In this document: one piece after another, positions 1,749 to 29,314 of the stretch
How the letters are laid out: each line of letters opens with the position of its first letter
Position numbering within the stretch: the first letter of the stretch is position 1
Source of the DNA: a virus
Reading direction: 5' to 3' (one strand)
IMG/VR virus record: IMGVR_UViG_3300010334_000198
Span: 1 to 29,314 of that record
Length of the DNA stretch: 29,314 nt
The notes under the pieces: model-generated
Database searches by the model: none
What the model was told of the DNA's origin: nothing
What the model saw: only the letters and a program-made list of their open reading frames with translations
Translations under genes and position numbers: made by a program

Positions 1749-3446
1749 GTGATCAAAAACATAATTGCTATATATCCAGGACGCTTCCAGCCATTCGGAA
1801 GGCACCACGCAGAGTCTTTTAATTGGCTTGCTTCTAAGTTTGGTAAAGACAAATCTTATATAGCTACCTCAGACGTAGTTAACCTTCCAAAAAGTCCACT
1901 TAATTTTAAAGAAAAGCAAGAGATTATAAGCAAATACGGACTTGGCAAAAATTTAGTTCAAGTAAAAAATCCGTATAAGGCTGAAGAAATCACTCAAAAG
2001 TACGATCCAAAGACCACTGCGATAGTTTTCATGGTTGGAGAGAAAGATATGAAGGAAGATCCTCGCTTTAAGATAGGAAAAAAGAAAGACGGTGGAGATT
2101 CTTACTTTCAAGAGTACAAACCCGGAATGAAAATGCAAGGCTACATGGAACATGGCTATTTAATAGTTGCTCCGCACACTTCTTACGACATTACAGGATT
2201 CGGTGAGATGAGCGGAACTACTATTAGACAAGCTTTATCTTCTAAATCCACACCAGAACAATACAAAAAATTATTTACCGATATCTTTGGTTGGTACGAT
2301 CCAAAAATAGCCGACATGTTGAAAAAAAAATTCTCTCAATCTAATAGTTTAAAAGAATCTATTAGCTTTGAGAAATCTCTTATACTAGAGTACTTAGTTT
2401 ACAACTTATTAAACGAAGGAGGAGCAGCTGGACACATGGCACACCCTTTCGATATTCCTTCAGTAAAAACAGGTAAAGATTTGTTAAGTGTATTCCAAAA
2501 AACTGGAGATTTTTTAACAAAGAATTCAGTTCCAGTAAAAATAGACGGAGTAAACGCTTCTATTAGATTGGCTAAAGTAGACGGAAAGACTCAGTTCGTA
2601 ATGGATAGAGGTTCTAATAAGCCTTTAGACGTTAAAGGCGTTACTTCTAAAGATCTTACTGATAGATTCGGAGAAGGACACGGCATGATTAGAATAGGCG
2701 GTAAAGTATTAGAGATATTCAACAAGACTTTACCCTCTATCAAAGGAGAATTGGAATCTTTGGGCATGCTAAACGATCCTAACAAGATGTTTAATATAGA
2801 ATATGTAGAAGGAAAATCAAACGTTCAAGAGTACGAGAGTAATTTCTTAGCAATACACAATATACTAGAACTTGAAAGAGTGAGTCCTACAAAAAGAGTT
2901 ACCAAAGAAGTCTCTTATAATAAAAAAGCATTGGCAGAACTTATTAAGAAGGTAAACCCAGTCGCTAAAAAGTATGAATTTGAAGTGATGGGAGAAATTC
3001 CAGCCAAATTAAAAACGAAACCTAACTTCGCCTCAGCTCTTTCTAAAAATTACACAGTAGTTTTAACAAAAGGAAAGAAAGAAACCAAATCATTGAACGA
3101 TTGGTTGAATGGAGCTAAAAATACCAAAGGTTTAAAGCTAAAGTTAAAAGACGGCAAAACTGTTGATGCACTAAGCAAGCAAGTATTCATATGGATAATG
3201 GATGGAAAACCAGTTGATCAATTGGTATCAGATATGAAAGACGCTAAAATAGCAATAGATTCATTTGTAATATACAATGCTACAATGTATTTAGGCGACG
3301 TAATACTAGACTCTTTAACTTCTCCATTGGGCGATGTTAAAGATCAAGAGGGAATTGTGGTTAGAGACAAGGCTGTATACGATAAGCCTTACAAAATAAC
3401 TGGATCTTTTATATTAAGAGGTCTTCAAACCGCTTTTGGAAAATAA
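1749..3446 (+). CDS. Bifunctional protein: nucleotidyltransferase domain fused to a DNA/RNA-ligase-like domain
   Basis: 565 residues, GTG start directly after an in-frame TAA; the first beta strand begins at residue 3, which supports this start. Residues 1-200 look like a NadM/NMN-adenylyltransferase-type domain: YPGRFQPFGRHH (9-20) and a C-terminal SGTTIR motif near 155-160. The canonical HxGH is changed to G17-R-H-H20, so the first His is lost. Residues about 224-565 look like a covalent nucleotidyltransferase (ligase) fold: K264-I-D-G motif I, NIEYVEG as a possible motif III, E534-GIVVR motif IV, and KPYK (546-549) as a motif V candidate. Between the two lies LVYNLLNE (ending at E223) followed by GGAAGHM, resembling a gp21-cleaved capsid-targeting peptide. 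Role inferred: NAD or nucleic-acid repair chemistry. Substrate unknown; activity of the first domain is doubtful. Confidence 0.72.
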   Translation: MIKNIIAIYPGRFQPFGRHHAESFNWLASKFGKDKSYIATSDVVNLPKSPLNFKEKQEIISKYGLGKNLVQVKNPYKAEEITQKYDPKTTAIVFMVGEKDMKEDPRFKIGKKKDGGDSYFQEYKPGMKMQGYMEHGYLIVAPHTSYDITGFGEMSGTTIRQALSSKSTPEQYKKLFTDIFGWYDPKIADMLKKKFSQSNSLKESISFEKSLILEYLVYNLLNEGGAAGHMAHPFDIPSVKTGKDLLSVFQKTGDFLTKNSVPVKIDGVNASIRLAKVDGKTQFVMDRGSNKPLDVKGVTSKDLTDRFGEGHGMIRIGGKVLEIFNKTLPSIKGELESLGMLNDPNKMFNIEYVEGKSNVQEYESNFLAIHNILELERVSPTKRVTKEVSYNKKALAELIKKVNPVAKKYEFEVMGEIPAKLKTKPNFASALSKNYTVVLTKGKKETKSLNDWLNGAKNTKGLKLKLKDGKTVDALSKQVFIWIMDGKPVDQLVSDMKDAKIAIDSFVIYNATMYLGDVILDSLTSPLGDVKDQEGIVVRDKAVYDKPYKITGSFILRGLQTAFGK

Positions 3447-3447
3447 T

Positions 3448-3858
3448 ATGACTGCAAAAGAAAAAATAGCATTACTACAAGATTTCGTGGAATACTGCGA
3501 AAACGCTTTAGATATAAAGAATCTACCAAAGATAAAATTTGTTTTTGATAGACAATGGGCTACTAACATGCACAGCTTTGGTAGATATAGAAATGGAGAA
3601 AGAGACGTGACTGTTTACATGAGAAACAGAAACATGGCAGATGTACTTAGAACTCTTGCACACGAACTAGTACATCACAAACAAAATGAATTAGGTAAAT
3701 TAAAACCTGATAGCGGTTCTACAGGATCAGATATAGAGAATGAGGCTAACGTAAAAGCCGGAATCCTAATGAGAGACTTCGGAAAAGAGCGAGAAGAGAT
3801 ATACGAATCCCAAACTATAAAGTTGGGAAATCTACTAAAAGAAATAAAAAGAAAGTAA
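3448..3858 (+). CDS. Zincin-type metallopeptidase (HExxH) with a C-terminal capsid-targeting-like tail
   Basis: 136 residues from the ATG in the TAATATG junction with the previous gene; a TTG 12 bases upstream would overlap that gene and is less likely. The core carries LAHELVHHKQ with H72-E73-x-x-H76, the zinc-binding and catalytic motif of zincins, and ENEA (E97/E99) about 20 residues later as a probable third ligand. The short size and absence of a signal peptide suggest a cytoplasmic or packaged SprT/minimal-zincin-like enzyme; the family is not certain. The last 15 residues (TIKLGNLLKEIKRK) nearly repeat the N-terminus of the gene at 5460 (MIKLGNLLNEI). That peptide type normally sits at N-termini, so its position at the C-terminus is odd. 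It shares a transcription unit with its neighbours. Confidence 0.75.
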   Translation: MTAKEKIALLQDFVEYCENALDIKNLPKIKFVFDRQWATNMHSFGRYRNGERDVTVYMRNRNMADVLRTLAHELVHHKQNELGKLKPDSGSTGSDIENEANVKAGILMRDFGKEREEIYESQTIKLGNLLKEIKRK

Positions 3859-5097: not shown

Positions 5098-5460
5098 ATG
5101 GATCAATTCTCAACACTAATCGGAACTTTGATGCAAAGCCGCAATCAGGCTCACATCTATCACTTACAAACTGAATCTTTTGCAGCGCATGCAGCATTGA
5201 ATACATACTATGATGAGATTGTTGAGCTATTTGATGGCTTAGTTGAGTCTTATCAAGGTCGCTATGGTATTTTAAGAAACTATAAAATGGCGGGAGCTAT
5301 CAAAGAAGACGACAATCCTATTGTTTACTTCGAAGCGCTTACAAAATTCGTAGAAACAATAAGAATGAAATGTCCTCAAGACTCTTATATTCAAAATCAG
5401 ATCGATACTGTAGTTGAATTATTAGAATCTACCAAATATAAATTAATATATTTGCACTAA
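5098..5460 (+). CDS. Dps/ferritin-like small helical protein
   Basis: 120 residues, all helical by appearance. Residues 19-43 have H19, H22, H31, D39, E40 and E43 in a pattern (AHIYHLQTESFAAHAALN then YYDEIVELFDG) resembling the ferroxidase-site helices of Dps/ferritin-like proteins. A phage family of this kind (DUF5856, from memory) shares this look. Possible role: iron or peroxide protection of DNA, or a structural four-helix bundle; this is inference. The protein is shorter than typical Dps (about 160), so the later helices may be reduced. The stop TAA overlaps the next ATG (TAATG), suggesting translational coupling to the gene at 5460. Confidence 0.62.
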   Translation: MDQFSTLIGTLMQSRNQAHIYHLQTESFAAHAALNTYYDEIVELFDGLVESYQGRYGILRNYKMAGAIKEDDNPIVYFEALTKFVETIRMKCPQDSYIQNQIDTVVELLESTKYKLIYLH

Positions 5461-5846
5461 TGATAAAATTAGGTAACCTATTAAACGAAATATTACAAGA
5501 AAAGTCTTGTTGGAGAGGATATGTCGCTAAAGGTACCAAGAAAAAAGGAGATAGAACAGTTCCTAACTGCGTTCCTTTAGAAGAGGAAGAGCAATTAGAA
5601 GAAGCCGAATATCACGGTAGAAAAGTTACTCTTAATAAACCGTTTCTAACTCCTGATGGACCTAAAAAGCGATCAGTATACGTTAAGAACGATAAAGGAA
5701 ACGTAGTTAAAGTAAATTTCGGTCAAAAAGGAGTCGCAATTAAGAAACACTTACCTAAACATAGAAAATCTTATAGAGCAAGACACGGATGTAGTAATCC
5801 TGGACCAAAATGGAAAGCAAATTATTGGAGTTGTAAAGCCTGGTAA
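5460..5846 (+). CDS. Small Cys-containing mosaic protein with a capsid-targeting-like N-terminus
   Basis: 128 residues, start overlapping the previous stop by one base. The N-terminus MIKLGNLLNE|IL resembles T4 internal-protein targeting peptides cleaved by gp21 after Glu. Then follow two small modules: CWRGYVAKGTKKKGDRTVPNC (17-37) and a C-terminal block from about EYHGRKVTLNKPF to the end that includes ARHGC, NPGPKWKANYW and SCKAW. Four Cys and several His could bind a metal. I recall the second module as a recurring domain of unknown function in marine T4-like phages, often attached to other proteins. The protein is strongly basic. A packaged DNA-associated role is inference. Confidence 0.7.
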   Translation: MIKLGNLLNEILQEKSCWRGYVAKGTKKKGDRTVPNCVPLEEEEQLEEAEYHGRKVTLNKPFLTPDGPKKRSVYVKNDKGNVVKVNFGQKGVAIKKHLPKHRKSYRARHGCSNPGPKWKANYWSCKAW

Positions 5847-5849
5847 ATT

Positions 5850-6530
5850 ATGATAAAATTATTAGACATACTATTAGAAATGGGAGCGGCTACAATAAAG
5901 CCAATCATGCATTTGTACGATGAAGATCCAAAAGCGGTTTCATCTATTATATTTCCAAACAATCCAAATGCTTCTAGAGAAGAGGTAGAACACGAATTGA
6001 TGGCTGCTTCTTACGAAGATTTCACTCAATACAGAGATGAATTGGGAATAGAAATAGAGGAAGCAGAAAGAACTAAAGCTGGAAGAAAGGTAAACAAAGC
6101 CTATCTTACCAAGAATAAGTCAGCAATGAAAGGAGAGATAGACAGAGTAGCTAAATTAAGCAACGATGATCCCTCAGCTTACACAAAATGGGACGCAGAT
6201 TACGCAGACAAAGACAAAAAGAAACCTTACAAGACCAAAAAATCAGTAGCAACCTCAGCTTACGAAAAAAGATTCGGAGAAAGTATTAACGAAGGAGACG
6301 CAGATACAGCACTATCAAATAAAGCAAAAGCAACCGGCATATCAAAAACAGTTTTAAGAGGCGTATACGATAAAGGCTTAGCTGCTTGGAAAACTGGGCA
6401 CAGACCTGGAGTTGGACAACATCAGTGGGCAATGGCAAGAGTTAATTCTTTTGTAACTGGAAAGGGCGGTGCTAGAAAAGCAGACAAAGGTTTATGGAAA
6501 AAAGCAAGCAAATCGAAAAATAAAAAATAA
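5850..6530 (+). CDS. Basic mosaic protein (possible DUF5824 module) with a capsid-targeting-like N-terminus
   Basis: 226 residues. The N-terminus MIKLLDILLE|MGAAT is of the L-x-x-E targeting type. Residues about 15-70 are acidic. A second module begins KAGRKVNKAYLTKNKSAMKG and runs to AYEKRFGES. The C-terminal 75 residues (from ALSNKAKATGISKTVLRG through WKTGHRPGVGQHQWAMARVN to WKKASKSKNKK) match a phage domain of unknown function that I believe is DUF5824, but I cannot verify the number. The basic tail suggests nucleic-acid contact. Its stop overlaps the next ATG (TAATG). Same transcription unit as its neighbours. Confidence 0.7.
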   Translation: MIKLLDILLEMGAATIKPIMHLYDEDPKAVSSIIFPNNPNASREEVEHELMAASYEDFTQYRDELGIEIEEAERTKAGRKVNKAYLTKNKSAMKGEIDRVAKLSNDDPSAYTKWDADYADKDKKKPYKTKKSVATSAYEKRFGESINEGDADTALSNKAKATGISKTVLRGVYDKGLAAWKTGHRPGVGQHQWAMARVNSFVTGKGGARKADKGLWKKASKSKNKK

Positions 6531-7372
6531 TGAAACTTACAGACTTACTTAAAGAGGCAATTTCTTACAAAAAATCAGGATTAAAGAATCCAGGCAAGGC
6601 CGATTTAAATCACGATAACGAAATCTCTTCTTACGAAAAGAAAAGAGGCGGAGCCATAGAAAAAAACATGAAAACGGAATTTAAAACACAAATACCGAAC
6701 GCTCCAACAATTAAATTTGGTAACGAAGAGAGACCCGTAGAAACAATGCCTTCTTTGAGCAGCTCAGAAATGACCACAATGGCAAATCAGTGCGAAGAGT
6801 GCGGAGCTCCAATGATGTACGAAGATAAAATGTGTATGGAGTGCGGATACATGCAAGAAGATGGCGACGCTACTTCTTTGCCATCTTCTCTTATTCCAGG
6901 ACCAGTTAAAGACGATGAGGATCAATTTTCTGAAGGAATGGATCACGAAGTTTCAATGGCAAAATCAAGCCTAAAAAATATAATAAGCAACGCAAGTCAA
7001 TTGTTAAATAAATTGGGAGACGAAGAAATTGATATTCCAGCCTGGGTTCAAGATCACATTACAAACTCAGACAATTATATTAGTCAAGCAAACGACGGAT
7101 ACTACGAATACGAATCAGAAGACGAACCTGAATACAATGACGGCGCAAGTTTACAAGATTTGATGGAGAGAAAGAAAAAGCCTTCTGCTGGTTTATCTAA
7201 AACTCAAAAATCTGCCATCGTAAAGAAAGCAAAAGCTGGTGGAGACATTGGTAAAAAAGGAAGTGGTTTTGCAGCAGTTGAAAAATCAGCAAAAGCTAGC
7301 GGAGCCGATAATCCTAAAGCAGTAGCCGCAGCAGCAATGTGGAAAGGCGCAGCAAAACGTGCACATAAATAA
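6530..7372 (+). CDS. Mosaic protein with EF-hand-like loop, zinc ribbon and capsid-targeting-like N-terminus
   Basis: 280 residues assembled from small modules. 1-9: MKLTDLLKE|A, an L-x-x-E targeting-like peptide. 25-36: D-x-N-x-D-x-E-I-x-x-x-E, a good calcium-binding EF-hand/dockerin-type loop. 88-105: CxxC-x10-CxxC zinc ribbon (CEEC and CMEC). About 140-195: MAKSSLKNIISNASQLLNKL followed by IPAWVQDHIT and NYISQANDGYYEY, a helical module I recall from many phage hypotheticals. About 215-280: AGLSKTQKSAIVKKAKAGG followed by a Lys/Ala-rich tail ending MWKGAAKRAHK. The whole combination is unusual. Function unknown; a packaged internal protein is the preferred inference. It starts in the TAATG overlap with the preceding gene. 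Confidence 0.72.
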   Translation: MKLTDLLKEAISYKKSGLKNPGKADLNHDNEISSYEKKRGGAIEKNMKTEFKTQIPNAPTIKFGNEERPVETMPSLSSSEMTTMANQCEECGAPMMYEDKMCMECGYMQEDGDATSLPSSLIPGPVKDDEDQFSEGMDHEVSMAKSSLKNIISNASQLLNKLGDEEIDIPAWVQDHITNSDNYISQANDGYYEYESEDEPEYNDGASLQDLMERKKKPSAGLSKTQKSAIVKKAKAGGDIGKKGSGFAAVEKSAKASGADNPKAVAAAAMWKGAAKRAHK

Positions 7373-7380
7373 TTATAAAC

Positions 7381-7980
7381 ATGAAACTAGACAAATTAAA
7401 AGGACACATTCCAGATTCAGTTATAGCTCAGATTCCAGGAGTGATGGAAAAATTTGATATTAATACTCCATTAAGATTGGCTCATTTCTTAGCTCAATGC
7501 GGTCATGAATCTGGCGGATTTAGATTGACAAAAGAAAACTTAAACTATTCAGCTAAAGGTTTGAATGGTATTTTTAAGAAGTACTTTCCAACATTAGAAT
7601 CGGCTTTACCATACGAAAGAAAACCCGAGAAAATTGCGAATAAGGTCTATGGCGGTAGAATGGGTAATGGTCCAGAATCAACTGGAGACGGCGCTAAATA
7701 TTGCGGTCGTGGTTACATTCAATTAACAGGAAAAGACAACTACACTGCGTTTGGAAAATCAATAAATGAAGACATCGTAGCAAATCCAACATGGGTTGCA
7801 GAAAAATACGCATTATTATCTGCAGCTTGGTTCTTCAACAAAAATAAATTACACATAATGGCTGATGGCGGTGCTACAGATGCTGTAGTTACTTCTATCA
7901 CAAAGAGAGTAAACGGCGGAACTATAGGATTACCTGATAGAATCAAACATTTCAAAGAATATCACACACTGTTATCATAA
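7381..7980 (+). CDS. GH19-family endolysin (chitinase-like muramidase)
   Basis: 199 residues, a single catalytic domain of the glycoside hydrolase 19 type, which in phages cuts peptidoglycan glycan strands. Visible motifs: HFLAQCGHESGGF with catalytic Glu candidate E43; KENLNYSAKGL with E52 as possible second acid; GDGAKYCGRGYIQLTGKDNY, the GH19 substrate-cleft signature; and SAAWFFNKNKL near the end. No signal peptide or cell-wall-binding domain, so it would need a holin or equivalent to reach the periplasm. It is embedded among putative packaged proteins, so a virion-associated role cannot be excluded, but it lacks the targeting-like N-terminus. TAATG overlap with the next gene. Confidence 0.88.
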   Translation: MKLDKLKGHIPDSVIAQIPGVMEKFDINTPLRLAHFLAQCGHESGGFRLTKENLNYSAKGLNGIFKKYFPTLESALPYERKPEKIANKVYGGRMGNGPESTGDGAKYCGRGYIQLTGKDNYTAFGKSINEDIVANPTWVAEKYALLSAAWFFNKNKLHIMADGGATDAVVTSITKRVNGGTIGLPDRIKHFKEYHTLLS

Positions 7981-10004
7981 TGAACAAAGACTTAGACATA
8001 TTAAAGGCAATTCTTTTAGAAGCTGACGAAGAAGACAACGTTAAAGACAAAGAAAAAGAAGTCGAGAAAAACGACGCGGAAGAAAAAGCCGACAGTAGAG
8101 CTAACGAAAAAGAAGACAAACCGGATTCTCCTTTCGATAAAGATCCAATGGGTTTTATTCTTAAGAAGTATCATACATTGAACGAGTTGTTAGCAGAATT
8201 AATGACTCCAGATTTCAAAGAATATATTATTGCCATATTCATTCAAGCACCAAAGCCAACTAGTTTTAAAATTGTTTTACACAACGGTCAATTTTTCTAT
8301 TTGACCTATATGATGGACGACACTTATCAAGCAATAATATCAGGTAAAAGACATTACTTATCTAGTATCGGTGAGAAAGAAAGAGCGATGAAGGGCATTA
8401 GTCGATTGCTACAACAAGGAAGTCCTTTAAAAACAAAAGGACCTGAAGGAGCAGAACAAGCCACAAGACCAGAAGGAGAAGACGACGGCAGTTTAAGCGG
8501 TGGAAATAATAATGGAGGAGGAGATCAAACTGGCGCAGAAGAAAACTCCGACAACGAACCGCTAACAGAATCAATCATACTAAAGGCTTTAATTAAAGAA
8601 GCTAAAACTCCTGACTTAAGATTAGTTTTTAACAAAGAAATGCAAGATAGTGGTCTAGAAGGAAAACCACAATCAGGACCTGCTCACATAAGATACAAAT
8701 TAGGCACAGCTCCAACAAAATCTATTACTAAAGTCGCAGATAAAGTAATTGGTAAGGGCAATTATGCAATTACAGATGAGCCTATGAAATCAAAATATTC
8801 TGCGTCCAGTAGTTACCCAACTATAAAAGTAACTGTAACAAAAGCAACCCAAAATTTCAAAAAAGGAGATTTTGTTCTTATAGTTAACCAGACCGGGGAA
8901 GATAACAAAAGTATTACCGCTAAAGCTTTAACCCCTACAAATTTGGGTATTGCTGGAGATTATAGCGATCTAAATAGTCTTGTTAAAGCTACAATAAAGG
9001 CAGTTTCAAAATATGAAAATTTAGGACCAATACTTATTGGGTTAACAAAAGATACAGATAAAAATACACCTGTATCAAAAGTTGGTCTATCTAAATTAAA
9101 AGACGGTAAAATAAATGTGCCTTTATCAAAACAAACTATACAACTATTAAGCGGCTTGTCTAAACAAGATAAGAATACTATAGGTAAAGATTTTGGAGAA
9201 GTATTAGGATCTATTTTTTTAGGTAAGCATGTTGGAATTAAGAAATACTTATCTTTTCCAAAAGGAAATGCAGATTTAGTTGATTTTTTACTTGATGGAT
9301 ATAAAATATCTTCTAAATATGAAAAAGGAGCTAGCGCATCTTTAACAGATTTATTAACAGCAATTAAACCGGATCAAATTAAAGACGATAAAGATCAAAT
9401 GGCATTATATAAAGCATTACAACCTATGCTTAAGAGTTCAAAAGAAATAAGTCCTAACGCATTCTTAAAAGTAGCTGCGTCATTTCAAAAAGATATGCCA
9501 GGTATTCAAATATTATCTAGAATTATAGGAATTGATCCAAATAATTTAAGGGCCCAAGACATTAACGATTATATTAAGCGTCTTTTTGCAAAAACAAACG
9601 CAAAATCAGCCAAACAAAAAGACGCTGTATTCTTCAAAAAATTTAATCCATTCTTCAATGAAATAAAAAGAAACCCAGGAAGCAAAGGCGGCCAAACAGT
9701 TGAATGGGAAGAGATTAAGAAAAAGAACGGTGATAGTGGTTACTACGGAGCTGTAACTTCTCCTTTCTCTTATTATGTGGCAGATCAATTAAATAAAAAA
9801 CCTCAATTTGTAAAGGCACTAAAAGAAATAGTTTCAAAAACTGAGGTTAAACAAATGTACTTGACTTTTGGTTTGGGAGAAGGTAATATGACTTTCAACA
9901 TTAGATCATTCAACGACCCTAATGCTGAGTTTAAATTCGAAATTCCAAGTTTGAGCGTTAAAAATCCAACAAGTAGCAAATTAGGTTTCTCTTTAGCTAA
10001 ATAA
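7980..10004 (+). CDS. Large putative internal protein with two targeting-like peptides and a possible PD-(D/E)XK nuclease core
   Basis: 674 residues. The N-terminus is LDILKAILLE|ADEED, then a highly acidic segment to about residue 55. A compact domain follows (55-145, MGFILKKYHTLNELLAELM and later RAMKGISRLLQQ), then a Gly/Asp/Glu-rich linker. A second peptide of the same type, SIILKALIKE|AKTPD, lies near residue 200. The C-terminal part holds GEVLGSIFLGK, then VDFLLDGYKISSKYEKGAS (D about 435, K about 445), spaced as in PD-(D/E)XK nucleases (acid, strand, xSxK). That assignment is tentative. The repeated targeting peptide suggests fusion of two packaged proteins. Codon use becomes more A/T-rich after about 8870. 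Confidence 0.65.
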   Translation: MNKDLDILKAILLEADEEDNVKDKEKEVEKNDAEEKADSRANEKEDKPDSPFDKDPMGFILKKYHTLNELLAELMTPDFKEYIIAIFIQAPKPTSFKIVLHNGQFFYLTYMMDDTYQAIISGKRHYLSSIGEKERAMKGISRLLQQGSPLKTKGPEGAEQATRPEGEDDGSLSGGNNNGGGDQTGAEENSDNEPLTESIILKALIKEAKTPDLRLVFNKEMQDSGLEGKPQSGPAHIRYKLGTAPTKSITKVADKVIGKGNYAITDEPMKSKYSASSSYPTIKVTVTKATQNFKKGDFVLIVNQTGEDNKSITAKALTPTNLGIAGDYSDLNSLVKATIKAVSKYENLGPILIGLTKDTDKNTPVSKVGLSKLKDGKINVPLSKQTIQLLSGLSKQDKNTIGKDFGEVLGSIFLGKHVGIKKYLSFPKGNADLVDFLLDGYKISSKYEKGASASLTDLLTAIKPDQIKDDKDQMALYKALQPMLKSSKEISPNAFLKVAASFQKDMPGIQILSRIIGIDPNNLRAQDINDYIKRLFAKTNAKSAKQKDAVFFKKFNPFFNEIKRNPGSKGGQTVEWEEIKKKNGDSGYYGAVTSPFSYYVADQLNKKPQFVKALKEIVSKTEVKQMYLTFGLGEGNMTFNIRSFNDPNAEFKFEIPSLSVKNPTSSKLGFSLAK

Positions 10005-17949: not shown

Positions 17950-18597
17950 ATGGCAAAACAATTACTGATAGAGACGGCTTACTTTACTCCGATGGTTTCA
18001 TTGAACGAGAGTAAAAGACACACCAATGGCAACCTAATGGTTAGCGGTCAAGTACAAGCCTGCGACAAGCCAAACGCAAACAAAAGAATCTACCCTTACG
18101 AAATACTTTATACGCAAGTAGAAAAATACATCAACGGACCTATCAGAGAAAATAGAGCTTTGGGAGAATTGGACCATCCTGAGTCCACTATTATCAATTT
18201 AAAGAACGTTAGCCACAACATCGTTAAACTTTGGTGGCAGGGCAAAGATCTTTACGGTCAAATAGAAATACTACCTACACCATCAGGAAATATTCTTACT
18301 CAACTTTTTGCAAATAACATCACAGTCGGCATCTCATCAAGAGCTTTAGGATCGGTTATTCCTATTGGTGAAGGTTTGGTTCAAGTAGAAGACGACCTAG
18401 ATCTTATTTGTTGGGACTTTGTTTCCACTCCATCAACTTACGGAGCCTACATGAAGCCTGCTGCCAACCCCAGCGCACCAGGTCTTCGAGAGTCATTCGA
18501 TTTAGAATTGGCTAATGCAAATAAGTATTCAAGAGCAAGTCGTCTTATTTCAGACATTATATGTTCTCAGAGCGGAATCTGCTGTTTAAGCAAATAA
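17950..18597 (+). CDS. 21: Prohead maturation protease (gp21-like, peptidase family U9/S80-type)
   Basis: Serine protease assembled inside the prohead; it cleaves scaffold, capsid protein and internal proteins after Glu and destroys the core. 215 residues, close to T4 gp21 (212). Signature features: VSGQVQACDKPNANKRIYPY near the N-terminus; GELDHPE with H76; GISSRALGS with Ser candidates S129/S130; and LDLICWDFVSTPS. The His-Ser arrangement fits the herpes-protease-like fold of this family. The last 30 residues contain two Cys and may be removed by self-cleavage. Its presence gives the L-x-x-E peptides seen in other proteins here a plausible enzyme. Confidence 0.95.
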   Translation: MAKQLLIETAYFTPMVSLNESKRHTNGNLMVSGQVQACDKPNANKRIYPYEILYTQVEKYINGPIRENRALGELDHPESTIINLKNVSHNIVKLWWQGKDLYGQIEILPTPSGNILTQLFANNITVGISSRALGSVIPIGEGLVQVEDDLDLICWDFVSTPSTYGAYMKPAANPSAPGLRESFDLELANANKYSRASRLISDIICSQSGICCLSK

Positions 18598-20055: not shown

Positions 20056-21753
20056 ATGGCAAACTTAGTACAATCATTATTAAATGAGTCTGCTCAGAAC
20101 GCTCAACAAGCTCAGTTTACTGTAGCTCAGAAGCTTTCTAAGAAGTGGGCAAAATCTGGCCTTTTAGAAGGTCTAGAAGGAAACGATCAAGCAAATATGG
20201 CTATGATCTTAGAAAGTCAAGCTAAGCAATTAGTAGTTGAATCATCTACCTCTGGTGGTGGTACAACAACTGGTGCGTCTTTCACAGCTGGTAACGGTGA
20301 ACAATGGGCTGGTGTAGCTTTACCTTTAGTTCGTAAGATCTTTGGTCAAATCGCATCTAAAGAGTTCGTTTCTGTTCAACCAATGAACTTACCTGCTGGA
20401 TTAGTATTCTATTTAGATTTCCAATACGGAAACACTAAAGATCCTTTCACTGCTGGTGATTCTTTATACGGTACTCGTACAGCTAACTTCGGTAACGCTG
20501 CTGCTGGTGCTTTATACGGTGCTGGTAAATTCGGATATTCTTTAAACCAATTCTCTGTATCTGCTTCCCTAGTTAGTATCGTTTCGGCTTCTTTTTCTGA
20601 CGTTGATTACGATGCAAACTATTCTGGTTCTATATTTTTCACAACTAACGATCCTACCGCTTCAAACGTTTTAAGAAAAGTAACTTTTGCTACTTCTTCT
20701 TTAACTAACTATGATATCAACGCGGTTCGTTCTTTCATTGTGACAACTGGTTCTAGCGCTATCGCTACAGCTTTCTTATCTCCAGACAAGACTTTACAAC
20801 AATTCACTCAAGTGGTTGGTGGTAACATCGTTTTCATCGTATCTGGTTCTCAATTACAAACAACTGGTTCAGTTGGTTCTACATTCAACATTGAATACGG
20901 TAAAGCAACAGACTTTAACGTAAGAGGTGACTTTGAAGATAGAACTGCTACTCAAGGTTTCTCTGTTCCTAACGCTGCAAGTACAAGTTCAATCGTTATC
21001 CCTGAGATCAACGTTCAAATGAAGTCTCAAACAATCAGTGCTAAAACAAGAAAATTGAAAGCACAATGGACTCCAGAATTTGCTCAAGATTTAAACGCTT
21101 ATCATTCTTTAGATGCTGAAGCTGAATTAACAGGTTTATTATCTGAGTACATCTCTTTAGAGATCGACTTAGAAGTATTAGATATGTTAATCCAAAACGC
21201 TCCAACAGTTGAATATTGGTCAGCTAGAGTTGGTAATACTTTAACTGCTGGTGCTGCTGCTCCTGTTAACAACACAGCTGGTTTGTATTACAATCAAATG
21301 ACTTGGTTCCAAACAATTGGTATCAAATTACAAAAAGTTTCTAACATCATCCACCAAAGAACAATGCGCGGTGGAGCTAATTTCATGGTAGTTTCTCCAG
21401 CAGTAGCTACAATCTTGGAATCAATCCCAGGATTTGCAGCTGATACTGACGGTGCAGCAGACACAATGAAATATGCTTTCGGCGTTCAAAAAGTAGGTGC
21501 TTTAAACAGCCGCTATAAAGTGTACAAGAATCCTTACATGACTGAAAACGTTATCTTGTTAGGTTTCCGTGGTACTCAGTTCTTAGAAGCCGGAGCTGTA
21601 TACTCTCCATATGTTCCATTGATCATGACTCCATTAGTGTACGATCCAAATACCTTCACTCCAAGAAAAGGTATCATGACTCGTTACGCAATGACTATGA
21701 TAAGACCCGAGTTTTATGGTTTAGTAGTAGTAGCAGATTTATCAGTAGTTTAA
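20056..21753 (+). CDS. 23: Major capsid protein (gp23-like)
   Basis: HK97-fold shell protein. 565 residues (T4 gp23: 521). The N-terminal propeptide starts MANLVQSLLNE, and the probable gp21 cleavage site is QLVVE62|SSTSGG, very close to the T4 site after Glu65. Core segments: GEQWAGVALPLVRKIFGQIA, VSVQPMNLPAGLVFYLDFQY, TRKLKAQWTPEFAQDLNAYH, LDAEAELTGLLSEYISLEID (backbone helix), NFMVVSPAVATILESIPGF, and the C-terminal YVPLIMTPLVYDPNTFTP and RYAMTMIRPEFYG. Residues about 165-300 are Ser/Thr/Val-rich and probably form an insertion domain. Codon use is more biased (GGT, GCT, CGT, TTA) than its neighbours, fitting very high expression. A strong terminator follows 30 bases after the stop. Confidence 0.97.
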   Translation: MANLVQSLLNESAQNAQQAQFTVAQKLSKKWAKSGLLEGLEGNDQANMAMILESQAKQLVVESSTSGGGTTTGASFTAGNGEQWAGVALPLVRKIFGQIASKEFVSVQPMNLPAGLVFYLDFQYGNTKDPFTAGDSLYGTRTANFGNAAAGALYGAGKFGYSLNQFSVSASLVSIVSASFSDVDYDANYSGSIFFTTNDPTASNVLRKVTFATSSLTNYDINAVRSFIVTTGSSAIATAFLSPDKTLQQFTQVVGGNIVFIVSGSQLQTTGSVGSTFNIEYGKATDFNVRGDFEDRTATQGFSVPNAASTSSIVIPEINVQMKSQTISAKTRKLKAQWTPEFAQDLNAYHSLDAEAELTGLLSEYISLEIDLEVLDMLIQNAPTVEYWSARVGNTLTAGAAAPVNNTAGLYYNQMTWFQTIGIKLQKVSNIIHQRTMRGGANFMVVSPAVATILESIPGFAADTDGAADTMKYAFGVQKVGALNSRYKVYKNPYMTENVILLGFRGTQFLEAGAVYSPYVPLIMTPLVYDPNTFTPRKGIMTRYAMTMIRPEFYGLVVVADLSVV

Positions 21754-25483: not shown

Positions 25484-28400
25484 ATGGCGCAATTTTATAA
25501 TAAACAACTACACTTTCCCTTATCAGGTTCGTTTACCGGATCCTTTACTGGATCTTTGCAAGGAACCTCGAGCCAATCCATTTCTTCTTCTTACGCACTC
25601 ACGGCCTCTTATTTATTAGGCTACGCATCATCATTCCCTTATACAGGTTCAGCTCAAATCACTGGTAGTTTAGGAGTGACTGGATCTTTATCAGTTTCTG
25701 CAGGCATTACTGGTTCACTGTTTGGTACAGCATCACAAGCAACTTCAGCTAGTTATGCGTTTACTGCAAGCTCAGCAATCAGTTCGTCTTACGCACTCAC
25801 GGCAAGCTCAGCTACTAACGCATTTAGTTCTAGCTTTGCATTAACAGCTTCTTTTGTAAATCCATTAAGACAAAACGTAATCATATCTGGATCTTTAACC
25901 GTTTCAGCATCAGCTACGGCGTTATCGATTCAAGGAAGCGGCTCTAATGTATTTAGCGTAGACGGAACTTCAGGAAGACTATTCGAAGTAGACGATTCGT
26001 TATCCGGATCTCTATTCTCAGTAAACACAGCTGCGGGTCTTCCAGTAATAGAAGCCTTCTCAGACAATACTGTAAGAATTGGTCAATTTGGACAAAGAGC
26101 TTTATTTGTATCTCAATCTAGAGTCGGTGTTGGAACTGAAACTCCTACTACCAACTTAGATGTATCAGGTTCGGGTAGATATACAAACGGATTATCTTTA
26201 ACCGGATCAGTAAACTCATTGAACGGTTACACTGGGTCTTTATTCGGCACAGCTTCTTGGGCTAGAAATGCTATAACAGCGTCTTACGCATTAGGCGGAG
26301 ATGCAAGTGCAATACTATACCAAACCGCTTCAGCTGCGTTTACTTGGTCGTTCAATCACTTCTTACAAACTCAGTATCCTGTCTTTACGATCTACGACAA
26401 TACAAATAGTGTTATTGTTCCTCAAAGAATTCAAGCGGTTGATACCTCTTCTGCGTTAATCTACTTCTCTAGTCCGACTACAGGTATCGCTGTTGCATCT
26501 AAAGGAGGTTACTCTTCTTCTGTTGTAACGAGCGCTGTTATTGCAAACACAGCTATAACTGCTTCATTCGCATTATCAGGTACCGGTACTTTCTCAGGAT
26601 CTTTTAGCGGCTCTTATCAAGGTAACTTTAGCGGATCTTTAGTAGGAACTGCGAGTCAAGCCGTATCCGCTAGTTATGCATTTACCGCTAGCTCTGCTTC
26701 AAACGCATTCTCTGCTTCTTTCGCGCAAACCTCAAGCTTCGCAAACAACTTTACTGTTGCTAATACGTTAACTGCTCAGACCCTGGTAGTGAGCACGATT
26801 AGCTCTTCTGTAGTATACTCATCAGGCAGTAATATCTTTGGTAACAACATATCAAACACTCAAACATTTACCGGTTCTGTTAGTATGACTGGTTCGTTAA
26901 CGGTAAACAATAATTTATTAGTTACCGGATCTGTAACTGCTACTTCTGCACTAGCACGAAGTACTTATATTAATCCTACTTTAGTAGCTGCAGCAAATAG
27001 TGATGTATTAGTAGGATTAGATGTTGCTCCTACTTTTAATGCGGACGCTTTTACGGGAGTACAAAATGTTGCTTTAAGAATAAATAATGCAATTCAATTT
27101 GTTGGAACTCCAACTTCATTAAGTGATGTTAACGGATTTTATGGTAATAGTACAAGTACTACATTTTTTGCAGCAGCAGGGCCACTACCACAAAGTTCAA
27201 CAGCTAATGGTGCATTTTTAGTAATGAGGGGAAATACATACTCAGCAATAGGGGGGCAAAGAGGTTGGACTATTTTAGCAGCAGGAAATGTTTCATCTCC
27301 AACTGGTAGAGAAGGTTCTATTTCCTTATACACAGGAAATGATGTTGAAAAATTTAGATTACTACCAAATGGTAACCTTATCATTCAAAACGGAGGTACA
27401 TTCACAGACAACGGATATAGGCTACAAATAAATGGATCAGGCTTACTCTCAGGCTCATTACTAGTATCAGGTAGTTCTGTTTTCCAAAACGCAACCACAT
27501 CTTCAGATGGAGGTGTTTTAGGGTCAGAATTAACTACAGCATCAGGTTGGGTATCGGGTTCGGATTGGACAGGCGTTTACAATTCATTTACTCACATATC
27601 AGGTTCAGGTAACACGCCCTTGACTTCATCTTTAGCTGCAGTAAATGGAAATAACTACGCAATAAACTATACTATAGCAACTAGAAACTCAGGTTCTATA
27701 ACTCTAAGTTATGGAGGATTAGTATCTTCAGGAGCAACTACTTCAGGAACGGCCTATGGTAAAGCTACATCAACTGCTTTGTTGTATGTTACTCCAACAG
27801 CTGATTTTGATGGAACTGTATCATTATCGGTTAAACAAGTAACGGCAGGAAGTGCTAATACTACTTTTCAAAATAGTTCAGGCACTGCAAATATAGAGGT
27901 AAGAGCAAGTGGAGCTTCTCCAACTAACACATTTATAGGTTTAAATAGCGGTAGATTCTCAATAGGTGGTACTCAAAATACATCATTAGGATATAATGCA
28001 TTATCTTCCATACTAAGTGCAAATAACACTACTGCAATAGGGTATAATGCAGGAACTTTAATTACAACAGGTGGTAGTAATACCTTAATAGGCTCAAACG
28101 CAGGTCAATCTATTACAACAGGTGGTGCTAATACATTAATAGGTTCAGGTGCAGGTCAACTTATTACAACAGGTGGTAGTAATACTATAATAGGTACAAG
28201 TTCAGGAATTTCTACAGGAGGTTCTAATGTAATAATAGGAAATGCAGCCGGTACTGGAAACGCATCATTTGCAGTAATTATAGGTGTGCAAGCAGGTTTT
28301 GGTTTAACAAGTGGCGGTTCAAATATTTTAATTGGATATAATTCTGGATTTTTTATATCAACAGGTGCTAACAATATTGCAATAGGTTATCAAGCAGGTC

Positions 28401-29314
28401 GTTATATAAGTTCAGGTTCTACTTCAAACCAAACATCTCAAAACTCTATTTACTTAGGGTATGATGTTCGTGCTTCTGCAAATGGAGACACAAACGAAAT
28501 TGTAATAGCAGGATATAACGGAACTGCAGGTCAGGTAGGATTAGGTTCTAACACCACAGTAATAGGTAACTCATCTACAACAGTAGCGGGAATATATGGT
28601 AACTTAGTATTAGTAGGAAGTGGTAGTGCTAACTTAATGACAGGTTCAGCTACCGGTTCAGGCTACACTTTAAACATAGCAGGACCAAGCACATCAGGTT
28701 CTTTATATGTAAATGGATTTACAGTATATAATGGTACAATCTCAGGTTCTCAACCTGCTAATAACGTATCTTCTTCTTTAATATTGATTAGTGGTAGTAT
28801 TAATCCAACAGGATCTGCAGGAACAGGTAGTGCAGTATTATTGAATACGGTAATGTCTGCTTCTGCTAATAACCAAACGTTGGTAGGACTAGATATTAAC
28901 CCTACTTTCGCTACAACAGGATTTACAGGAACAACAAGTGCTGCTTTGAGAGTTGGGGGTGATATTATACCGAATGCAAATACTACGTATAATATTGGTA
29001 CAAACAGTTTGAATTTTACCCGCATTTATGTACAAAACGTCAATTCTGCAGGAGGTCTAAATACAAACTCAGGTGGTTCTACCCAAATAACTGCAGGAAG
29101 TGCACTTGGATTAAAAGCTTCTAATAATACTTTATTTACAAATAATAATATTCAAAATGCTCAAGTATTCTCAACAGGCAACTGGCTTTTACAAAACGGA
29201 GGTACATTTACAGACAACGGATATCGTCTCCAAGTACAAGGATCAGGATCGGCATCAGGTTCACTATATGTAAATGGATTTACAGTACACGATGGTGCTA
29301 TTTCAGGTTCACAA
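25484..29314 (+). CDS. Giant repetitive tail-fibre protein, 3' partial
   Basis: One open frame of 1277 codons from the ATG 3 bases after the previous stop to the window edge, without a stop. It is rich in Ser, Thr, Gly, Ala and Asn. 1-130: units of the GSFTGSLQGTSSQSISSSYA and ALTASSA type. 130-490: beta-structured blocks (FSVDGTSGRLFEVDDSLSGS, RVGVGTETPTTNLDVSGSG). 365-410 repeats the GTASQA-SASYA units. 490-640: TLVAAANSDVLVGLDVAPTF module and LQINGSG. 820-970: N-T-x-I-G-x-x-A-G repeats like YadA-head beta-rolls. The end repeats earlier modules. The modular, trimer-prone sequence fits a distal fibre or adhesin. No C-terminal chaperone is visible because the gene is cut. T/A-rich third positions increase after about 26940. 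Confidence 0.85.
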   Translation, partial: MAQFYNKQLHFPLSGSFTGSFTGSLQGTSSQSISSSYALTASYLLGYASSFPYTGSAQITGSLGVTGSLSVSAGITGSLFGTASQATSASYAFTASSAISSSYALTASSATNAFSSSFALTASFVNPLRQNVIISGSLTVSASATALSIQGSGSNVFSVDGTSGRLFEVDDSLSGSLFSVNTAAGLPVIEAFSDNTVRIGQFGQRALFVSQSRVGVGTETPTTNLDVSGSGRYTNGLSLTGSVNSLNGYTGSLFGTASWARNAITASYALGGDASAILYQTASAAFTWSFNHFLQTQYPVFTIYDNTNSVIVPQRIQAVDTSSALIYFSSPTTGIAVASKGGYSSSVVTSAVIANTAITASFALSGTGTFSGSFSGSYQGNFSGSLVGTASQAVSASYAFTASSASNAFSASFAQTSSFANNFTVANTLTAQTLVVSTISSSVVYSSGSNIFGNNISNTQTFTGSVSMTGSLTVNNNLLVTGSVTATSALARSTYINPTLVAAANSDVLVGLDVAPTFNADAFTGVQNVALRINNAIQFVGTPTSLSDVNGFYGNSTSTTFFAAAGPLPQSSTANGAFLVMRGNTYSAIGGQRGWTILAAGNVSSPTGREGSISLYTGNDVEKFRLLPNGNLIIQNGGTFTDNGYRLQINGSGLLSGSLLVSGSSVFQNATTSSDGGVLGSELTTASGWVSGSDWTGVYNSFTHISGSGNTPLTSSLAAVNGNNYAINYTIATRNSGSITLSYGGLVSSGATTSGTAYGKATSTALLYVTPTADFDGTVSLSVKQVTAGSANTTFQNSSGTANIEVRASGASPTNTFIGLNSGRFSIGGTQNTSLGYNALSSILSANNTTAIGYNAGTLITTGGSNTLIGSNAGQSITTGGANTLIGSGAGQLITTGGSNTIIGTSSGISTGGSNVIIGNAAGTGNASFAVIIGVQAGFGLTSGGSNILIGYNSGFFISTGANNIAIGYQAGRYISSGSTSNQTSQNSIYLGYDVRASANGDTNEIVIAGYNGTAGQVGLGSNTTVIGNSSTTVAGIYGNLVLVGSGSANLMTGSATGSGYTLNIAGPSTSGSLYVNGFTVYNGTISGSQPANNVSSSLILISGSINPTGSAGTGSAVLLNTVMSASANNQTLVGLDINPTFATTGFTGTTSAALRVGGDIIPNANTTYNIGTNSLNFTRIYVQNVNSAGGLNTNSGGSTQITAGSALGLKASNNTLFTNNNIQNAQVFSTGNWLLQNGGTFTDNGYRLQVQGSGSASGSLYVNGFTVHDGAISGSQ
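25718..25800 (+). repeat. GTASQA-SASYA-FTASSA repeat unit, copy A
   Basis: Encodes TGSLFGTASQATSASYAFTA followed by SSA. The same pattern recurs at 26630-26700 and in shorter form near 25560-25605 and 26235-26290. The DNA differs by many synonymous changes, so these are old duplications. Confidence 0.75.
26630..26700 (+). repeat. GTASQA-SASYA-FTASSA repeat unit, copy B
   Basis: Encodes SGSLVGTASQAVSASYAFTA followed by SSA, second copy of the unit at 25718. Confidence 0.75.
27386..27418 (+). repeat. 33-base repeat, first copy (QNGGTFTDNGY)
   Basis: Identical to 29192-29224 apart from one base (C/T in TTCACA against TTTACA). Encodes QNGGTFTDNGY, followed in both copies by RLQ-x-x-GSG. Copies are about 1.8 kb apart in the same frame. 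Confidence 0.9.
28061..28213 (+). repeat. 51-base tandem repeats (ITTGGxNTxIGxxAGQ)
   Basis: Three units starting at 28061, 28112 and 28163, exact 51-base (17-residue) period, each opening ATTACAACAGGTGGT. Degenerate N-T-x-I-G units lie on both sides (about 27940-28480). The pattern suggests a left-handed beta-roll. Confidence 0.9.
28694..28753 (+). repeat. 60-base repeat, first copy (SGSLYVNGFTV)
   Basis: Closely matches 29255-29314 (window end): both encode SGSLYVNGFTV-xx-G-x-ISGSQ. With the 33-base repeat it marks recurrent module boundaries in the fibre. Confidence 0.88.
29192..29224 (+). repeat. 33-base repeat, second copy
   Basis: Second copy of 27386-27418 with one mismatch, in the same reading frame of the fibre gene. 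Confidence 0.9.
29255..29314 (+). repeat. 60-base repeat, second copy, at the window edge
   Basis: Second copy of 28694-28753; it reaches the last base of the window, so the repeat module may continue beyond it. Confidence 0.85.

Follow-up and report, generated by a model that had tools for sequence, protein, structure and literature searches.

The window, the whole 29,314-nucleotide stretch of viral DNA analysed here (IMG/VR record IMGVR_UViG_3300010334_000198), is a T4-like late region encoding terminase, portal, an S77 prohead protease, a scaffold-like protein and the major capsid protein. Just upstream of the terminase, portal, protease and capsid genes, within the late block, lies an open reading frame of 565 codons whose GTG start sits directly 3' of a stop codon; its product begins with MIKNIIAIYPG and comprises two enzyme-like domains separated by a linker (Table 1). 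Clear Shine-Dalgarno sequences are lacking at the gene starts of the window, whose leaders are A-rich, a pattern shared with Bacteroidota and their phages. Positions 25484–29314 hold an open frame of 1277 residues that runs off the end and carries GSxxGSLxGTASxAxSASYA repeats, resembling a repetitive tail-fibre protein.

Table 1. Coordinates of the fusion gene, its domains and motifs, and other relevant genes of the window (↓, predicted cleavage)
Feature	Position	Strand	Basis or remark
Fusion gene: NMNAT-like domain, capsid-targeting/cleavage linker, ligase-like domain	1749..3446	+	565 aa, GTG start
HIGH-superfamily (NadM-like) nucleotidyltransferase domain, residues 1–198	1749..2342	+	fold and profile match to NadM
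GRFQPFGRHH, residues 11–20, altered HxGH (GxHH)	1779..1808	+	alignment
SGTTIR, residues 155–160, R160 invariant	2211..2228	+	alignment
Linker, residues 199–223, ending in capsid-targeting-like LVYNLLNE; cut predicted after E223	2343..2417	+	pLDDT, motif
Ligase-like nucleotidyltransferase domain, residues 224–565, predicted mature N-terminus GGAAGHMAHPFD	2418..3443	+	model and fold match
Motif I KIDG, residues 264–267; K264 predicted adenylylated lysine	2538..2549	+	invariant
Motif III NIEYV, E351	2793..2807	+	N and E invariant; hhalign aligns with Rnl1 NFEFV
Motif IV EGIVVR, residues 534–539; E534	3348..3365	+	invariant
Motif V-like KITG, K549; T551 in place of second KxK lysine	3393..3404	+	alignment
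Small metalloprotease-like protein (HELVHHK), C-terminal targeting-like TIKLGNLLKE↓IKRK	3436..3858	+	sequence
Small gene, N-terminal MIKLGNLLNE↓, CW-x-GY...VPNCVP module	5460..5846	+	module internal in fused polyproteins of relatives
DUF5824 gene, N-terminal MIKLLDILLE↓	5850..6530	+	sequence
Gene with N-terminal MKLTDLLKE↓	6530..7372	+	sequence
674-aa protein, N-terminal MNKDLDILKAILLE↓, internal IILKALIKE↓A at residue 207	7980..10004	+	no database match
Prohead protease, peptidase family S77 (T4 gp21 family)	17950..18597	+	PF03420 E 1.7e-24; phrog_207
Major capsid protein, N-terminus MANLVQSLLNE↓, more LxE sites at 53 and 62	20056..21753	+	profile match, sequence

Full-length relatives of the 565-residue protein, confirmed by tblastn, occur in dozens of viral contigs at 100% to ~36% identity, and this full-length conservation shows that the frame is real and no product of chance. 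The ligase-like part alone, used as query, identified at least 478 places in viral contigs that encode it, against matches in only six contigs among 84,980 bacterial and archaeal species genomes (two of the six are ~400 kb and possibly phage); the ligase-like family is thus essentially viral. The open-licence papers searched contained no description of this fusion. AlphaFold2 modelled both domains with high confidence, and both folds matched the assignment of the sequence-only reading, which had proposed an NMN-adenylyltransferase-like domain followed by a ligase-like one. The motifs it listed sit where it placed them, and the invariance of their key residues among relatives takes the assignment beyond chance. 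KPYK, which it had counted as a ligase motif, does not hold up: only K549 is kept, within K-[IV]-T-G, and the first lysine is D, S or E elsewhere.

For residues 1–198, modelled at high confidence with AlphaFold2, the top solved fold was NadM (2r5w; Z 11.8, rmsd 3.2, 158 aligned), followed by the Methanothermobacter NMN adenylyltransferase (NMNAT; Z 11.7) and by phosphopantetheine adenylyltransferases (PPAT; Z 11.4), which tie with NadM. The best PDB chains by sequence profile were the F. tularensis NMN adenylyltransferase NadM (E 4e-6) and the M. jannaschii NMN adenylyltransferase (7e-5), and stand-alone relatives of the domain scored best against NadM-type NCBIfam models, far under the cut-offs. 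By modelled fold and sequence profile the domain is NMNAT-like, a term that designates a putative substrate class only. It shares with NadM-type enzymes the fold, GRFQPF, the P-x-x-F-x-x-K region and SGTxxR, but it has no Nudix domain and carries a conserved KDMxEDPRF...YFxxY insert. GRFQPFGRHH is present as claimed, yet without the canonical HxGH: GxHH (rarely AxHH or SxHH) replaces it in 34 of 42 aligned sequences, and only seven keep HxGH. The last His of this motif (H20) is invariant, as are K56, K99, D100 and R106, and the SxTxxR motif is present as SGTTIR, with R160 in 42/42. The change from HxGH to GxHH makes NMNAT activity uncertain. NadM-bearing phages always have NadV (PMC9503650). 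A search for this partner, as a test of the NAD salvage route usual in phages (NadV plus NadM), yielded none across 14 related records, four of them 174–193 kb, for which completeness is not stated. The altered HxGH and the absence of NadV weaken the idea of NAD restoration, though the fold fits it.

The ligase-like domain, modelled alone with 32 relatives, reached a pLDDT of 92.8 and a pTM of 0.87. In VIA-align, the best 44 rows were all RNA or DNA ligases, headed by T4 RNA ligase 1 (gp63, Rnl1; Z 9.1, rmsd 3.9, 176 aligned) and a Naegleria RNA ligase (8.0). The first four Foldseek matches were two entries of T4 Rnl1, a putative DNA ligase and an archaeal RNA ligase; nothing fell below E 0.001, the ligase fold reaching only 0.017. 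K264, D266, G267, E351, E534, G535, K549, T551 and G552 show no variation across 32 diverse relatives, and a divergent subfamily (type B; L079, L082, L083, L138–L141), homologous to the domain at 99% by profile comparison, retains K-x-D-G, EG-[ILV]-V and K-[LF]-T-G. No credible sequence match to the domain came from Pfam, PHROGs or PDB chains; at a threshold of E 1, neither the window protein nor nine divergent relatives matched a Pfam ligase model, Rnl1 (PF09511) included. Comparison with Rnl1 by hhalign returned a short match at motif III only (probability 7%, E 0.005), and comparison with Rnl2 returned nothing. Because sequence and profile comparison with ligases is weak, ligase identity rests on the fold and the invariant motifs. 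By the model, residues 224–565 are a ligase-superfamily nucleotidyltransferase outside the named ligase families, and the family is undescribed by any library checked (Pfam, PHROG, PDB).

Compared with T4 Rnl1, the nearest solved fold, the domain shares K-x-D-G, N-x-E-[YF]-V, E-G-x-V and the motif V lysine. It differs in having KxT for KxK (K-x-T in 32/32 relatives versus K-x-K in 22/22 Rnl1 sequences), in lacking the Rnl1 C-terminal domain—16 residues follow K549 to the protein end, against 132 after K242 in T4 Rnl1—in an insert of >100 residues between motifs IIIa and IV, and in a conserved N-terminal GHMxHPFD element upstream of motif I. With the second motif V lysine and the C-terminal domain missing, nucleic-acid sealing is uncertain, though the Rnl1-like core fits RNA sealing. 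A replicative DNA ligase is unlikely, since the relatives G002 and G003 encode a separate ATP-dependent DNA ligase; separate RNA ligases are present in G003 and in Microcystis phage Mel-JY01, whose own fusion contains another subtype of the ligase (junction IIAE↓GGLGGHM).

The join between the domains, LLNE↓GGAAGHM, is found at residues 220–230 as the earlier reading had it, with the predicted mature boundary corrected to E223↓G224. The linker is not a buried structural helix: residues 199–225 have pLDDT <50 in the full-length AlphaFold2 model, whose pTM of 0.58, versus 0.87 for the ligase-like domain alone, is as expected of two independent domains. The T4 prohead protease gp21 cleaves after L/I-X-E, and for head targeting an N-terminal peptide of 10 residues is enough (PMC9026906). 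LNE↓G at residues 221–223 conforms to this motif. When relatives are grouped into 45 clusters (<85% identity), the position preceding the ligase-like domain (P1) is Glu in 43, P3 is Leu or Ile in 43, and P4 is mostly Leu; the two clusters without P1 Glu are L139 and one with an endonuclease-like insert (represented by L053, with L051 and L052). The suggestion that the prohead protease may split the two halves agrees with the presence of its motif at the junction and of an S77 protease in the window, which is the presumed processing enzyme of the fusion; S77 proteases also occur in 10 of 14 related records.

Stand-alone ligase-like homologues that start with a targeting peptide were found at L068 and L070–L075. 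L070 begins with MTTFKEFYQLISE↓GGAAGHM, its peptide ending at the same point as the window junction, while L068 begins with VNFSEYIELINE↓GGAAGHM, L074 with MITFKQFLLE↓GGVAGHM and L075 with MLSFLQFLAE↓GGVGGHM. Some fusions keep a start-like Met and targeting peptide internally (MKLKSLINE in L037, MRFKDLIIE in L047, MKLKDLIVE↓GG in L049), and the nucleotidyltransferase domains of other relatives bear N-terminal peptides of their own (MNLGNWLVEQIITE↓ and MKSFKLFFE↓). As judged from these sequences, peptides at stand-alone starts together with internal remnants are the trace expected from fusing separately packaged proteins. Five window genes besides the fusion start with targeting-like peptides (those at 5460, 5850, 6530 and 7980, and the capsid gene). 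In a sample of 284 genes from 25 related loci, 43 have the motif in the first 18 residues, against 4.2 expected from its internal frequency, a ten-fold enrichment that is uncorrected for relatedness among the loci. The 674-residue protein, with both an N-terminal and an internal site, is a candidate for a second two-part packaged precursor. The DUF5824 gene is matched at its C-terminal end by phrog_3041 ('cytidyltransferase'), which suggests that the DUF5824 module is probably fused to a nucleotidyltransferase in other phages.

Our main reading, to which we assign a probability of roughly 0.6, is that the fusion would be a precursor taken into the phage head, where cleavage would turn it into two enzymes. 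Packaging plus cleavage of the precursor, considered apart from any function, appears probable from the sequence pattern. The internal targeting peptide would dock the precursor on the prohead core, and the S77 protease would cut after E223, releasing an NMNAT-like domain that retains the peptide at its C-terminus and giving the ligase-like domain the N-terminus GGAAGHMAHPFD; both products would then be ejected along with the phage DNA. More speculatively, in the host the ligase-like domain may be adenylylated on K264 and seal or cap nucleic acid, most likely RNA, and the NMNAT-like domain may make an adenylylated dinucleotide such as NAD, so that the pair would repair defence-caused RNA breaks and nucleotide depletion before phage gene expression. 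We regard this particular repair role as doubtful. The anatomy proposed from sequence is good and the proposal as a whole partly supported, with its chemistry left less certain: a repair or counter-defence role, coupled chemistry and the substrates are unsupported or only possible, given the altered HxGH, the absent motif V lysine and Rnl1 C-terminal domain, and the lack of NadV in the 14 related records. The broadest version strikes us as improbable, namely that a large uncultured T4-like group loads its virions with a cut-on-assembly precursor whose ligase-like family, nearly always paired with an adenylyltransferase, replenishes NAD, or some other adenylylated cofactor, and mends broken RNA during the first minutes following entry and ahead of phage gene expression, as an injected repair kit against NAD-depleting and tRNA-cutting defences.

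The two domains recur together in several arrangements. Nucleotidyltransferase type 1 is the fusion partner of the ligase-like domain at 104 loci, and type 2 (GGFKPPH) at 10; the domain order is reversed in L076–L078 and probably L137, and the nucleotidyltransferase is an adjoining separate gene in L070–L075 and, weakly, in L068. The first locus set came from a fusion query, which inflates its share of fusions; a set obtained from the ligase part alone showed the same pairing pattern. That two distinct clades of adenylyl- or cytidylyltransferases repeatedly partner the ligase-like domain speaks for a common function, and the occurrence of two nucleotidyltransferase kinds, in both orders or as adjacent genes, indicates that the pairing is selected. 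The CW-x-GY...VPNCVP module is a separate gene with its own peptide at 5460 and an internal module in L061, L063, L106, L116 and L131; the precursors are thus mosaics. L133, L136, L111 and L113 encode precursors of 920–1269 residues with the nucleotidyltransferase first, the ligase-like domain last and extra modules between them (DUF192 in L136).

These pairings bear on a structural or assembly role, in which the ligase-like domain would belong to the packaged parts of the head or neck, retaining a nucleotide-binding fold without being a repair enzyme. Such a role would suit a late gene beside the head genes, the missing second lysine of motif V and the separate canonical ligases of some related phages, and T4 RnlA (RNA ligase 1) is itself also annotated as 'tail fiber attachment catalyst'. 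We nevertheless find it unlikely: the invariance of K264, E351, E534 and K549 over the family argues for catalysis, as far as sequence can indicate, even the divergent type B relatives keep K-x-D-G, EG-[ILV]-V and K-x-T-G, and repeated pairing with adenylyltransferases better suits a pair of enzymes.

The fusion could also be an ordinary cytosolic two-domain enzyme that acts in the cell where it is made, its junction LxE being structural and never cut. The window protein has no targeting peptide at its precursor N-terminus, where L070–L075 have one, and packaging would fail if the internal peptide were inactive inside the chain; in addition, the residues just past the junction are highly conserved. 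Positions −30 to −7 before the junction, however, mostly carry <1 bit and are nearly random, so that ahead of the cut only P4, P3 and P1 are conserved, which are exactly the needs of the protease. In L077, L078 and L137 a Met start stands right at the mature end without LxE, which shows that the junction Glu is no structural necessity. Considering also the low linker pLDDT and the stand-alone relatives, in which LxE belongs to a T4-like N-terminal targeting peptide, we think that a purely cytosolic enzyme has little probability. An NAD-dependent ligase with cofactor recycling, in which NMN released by the ligase-like domain would be remade into NAD by the NMNAT-like domain with ATP, would account for the constant NMNAT-like pairing, the extra GHMxHPFD element and the lone motif V lysine, which is typical of NAD-dependent DNA ligases, but it is very hard to credit against nearest folds that are ATP-dependent RNA ligases, the lack of a PF01653 match in 8 related records and the loss of any tether between the two domains if the junction is cut.

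Read as a packaged and cleaved precursor, the fusion resembles the capsid cargo of T4 that gp21 cuts, the internal proteins IPI, IPII and IPIII and Alt, in its short hydrophobic targeting peptide ending in L/I-x-E, its late gene block and an S77 protease encoded nearby; Alt is likewise cut at a C-terminal site. Unlike these proteins, it has the peptide between two enzyme domains, so that one precursor would yield two cargos, both of them nucleotidyltransferases. In this reading it is a variant form of T4-type head cargo, bearing a ligase-like family undescribed in the libraries checked. The polyvalent proteins of phages and conjugative elements described in the portion of the survey by Iyer et al. 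(2017; PMC5512222) considered here also have several conflict-type domains per polypeptide, with proteolytic release and delivery alongside DNA predicted for them. In contrast to them, the fusion appears to have no peptidase domain in its chain (a Pfam scan, weak for divergent domains, gave no peptidase match in the 565 residues), and its release sites suit a separate prohead protease; the NMNAT-like and ligase-like pair was not found in that portion of the survey.

Encoded at no fewer than 478 places in viral contigs, the family combines wide distribution with a clear catalytic prediction and a proposed route into the cell. With it, the concept of T4 internal proteins would reach beyond single small cargos and take in modular precursors whose targeting peptide also serves to join the enzymes. 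If this holds, targeting peptides could reveal the injected enzymes of uncultured phages by sequence alone.

Two irregular forms of the gene were also seen. In L051 (5962–8460), as in L052 and L053, an endonuclease-like segment of ~250 residues lies in frame exactly at the cleavage junction, with CxxC and an HNH-like HLDHK...NL...N...KG signature and the short direct repeat GGGGCTGCCG on either side; a group I intron was rejected for the L051 insert, which had no match in Rfam. In L055, a stop codon at 7161–7165 splits the ligase-like domain of an otherwise intact fusion, reflecting either a sequencing error or a recent loss.
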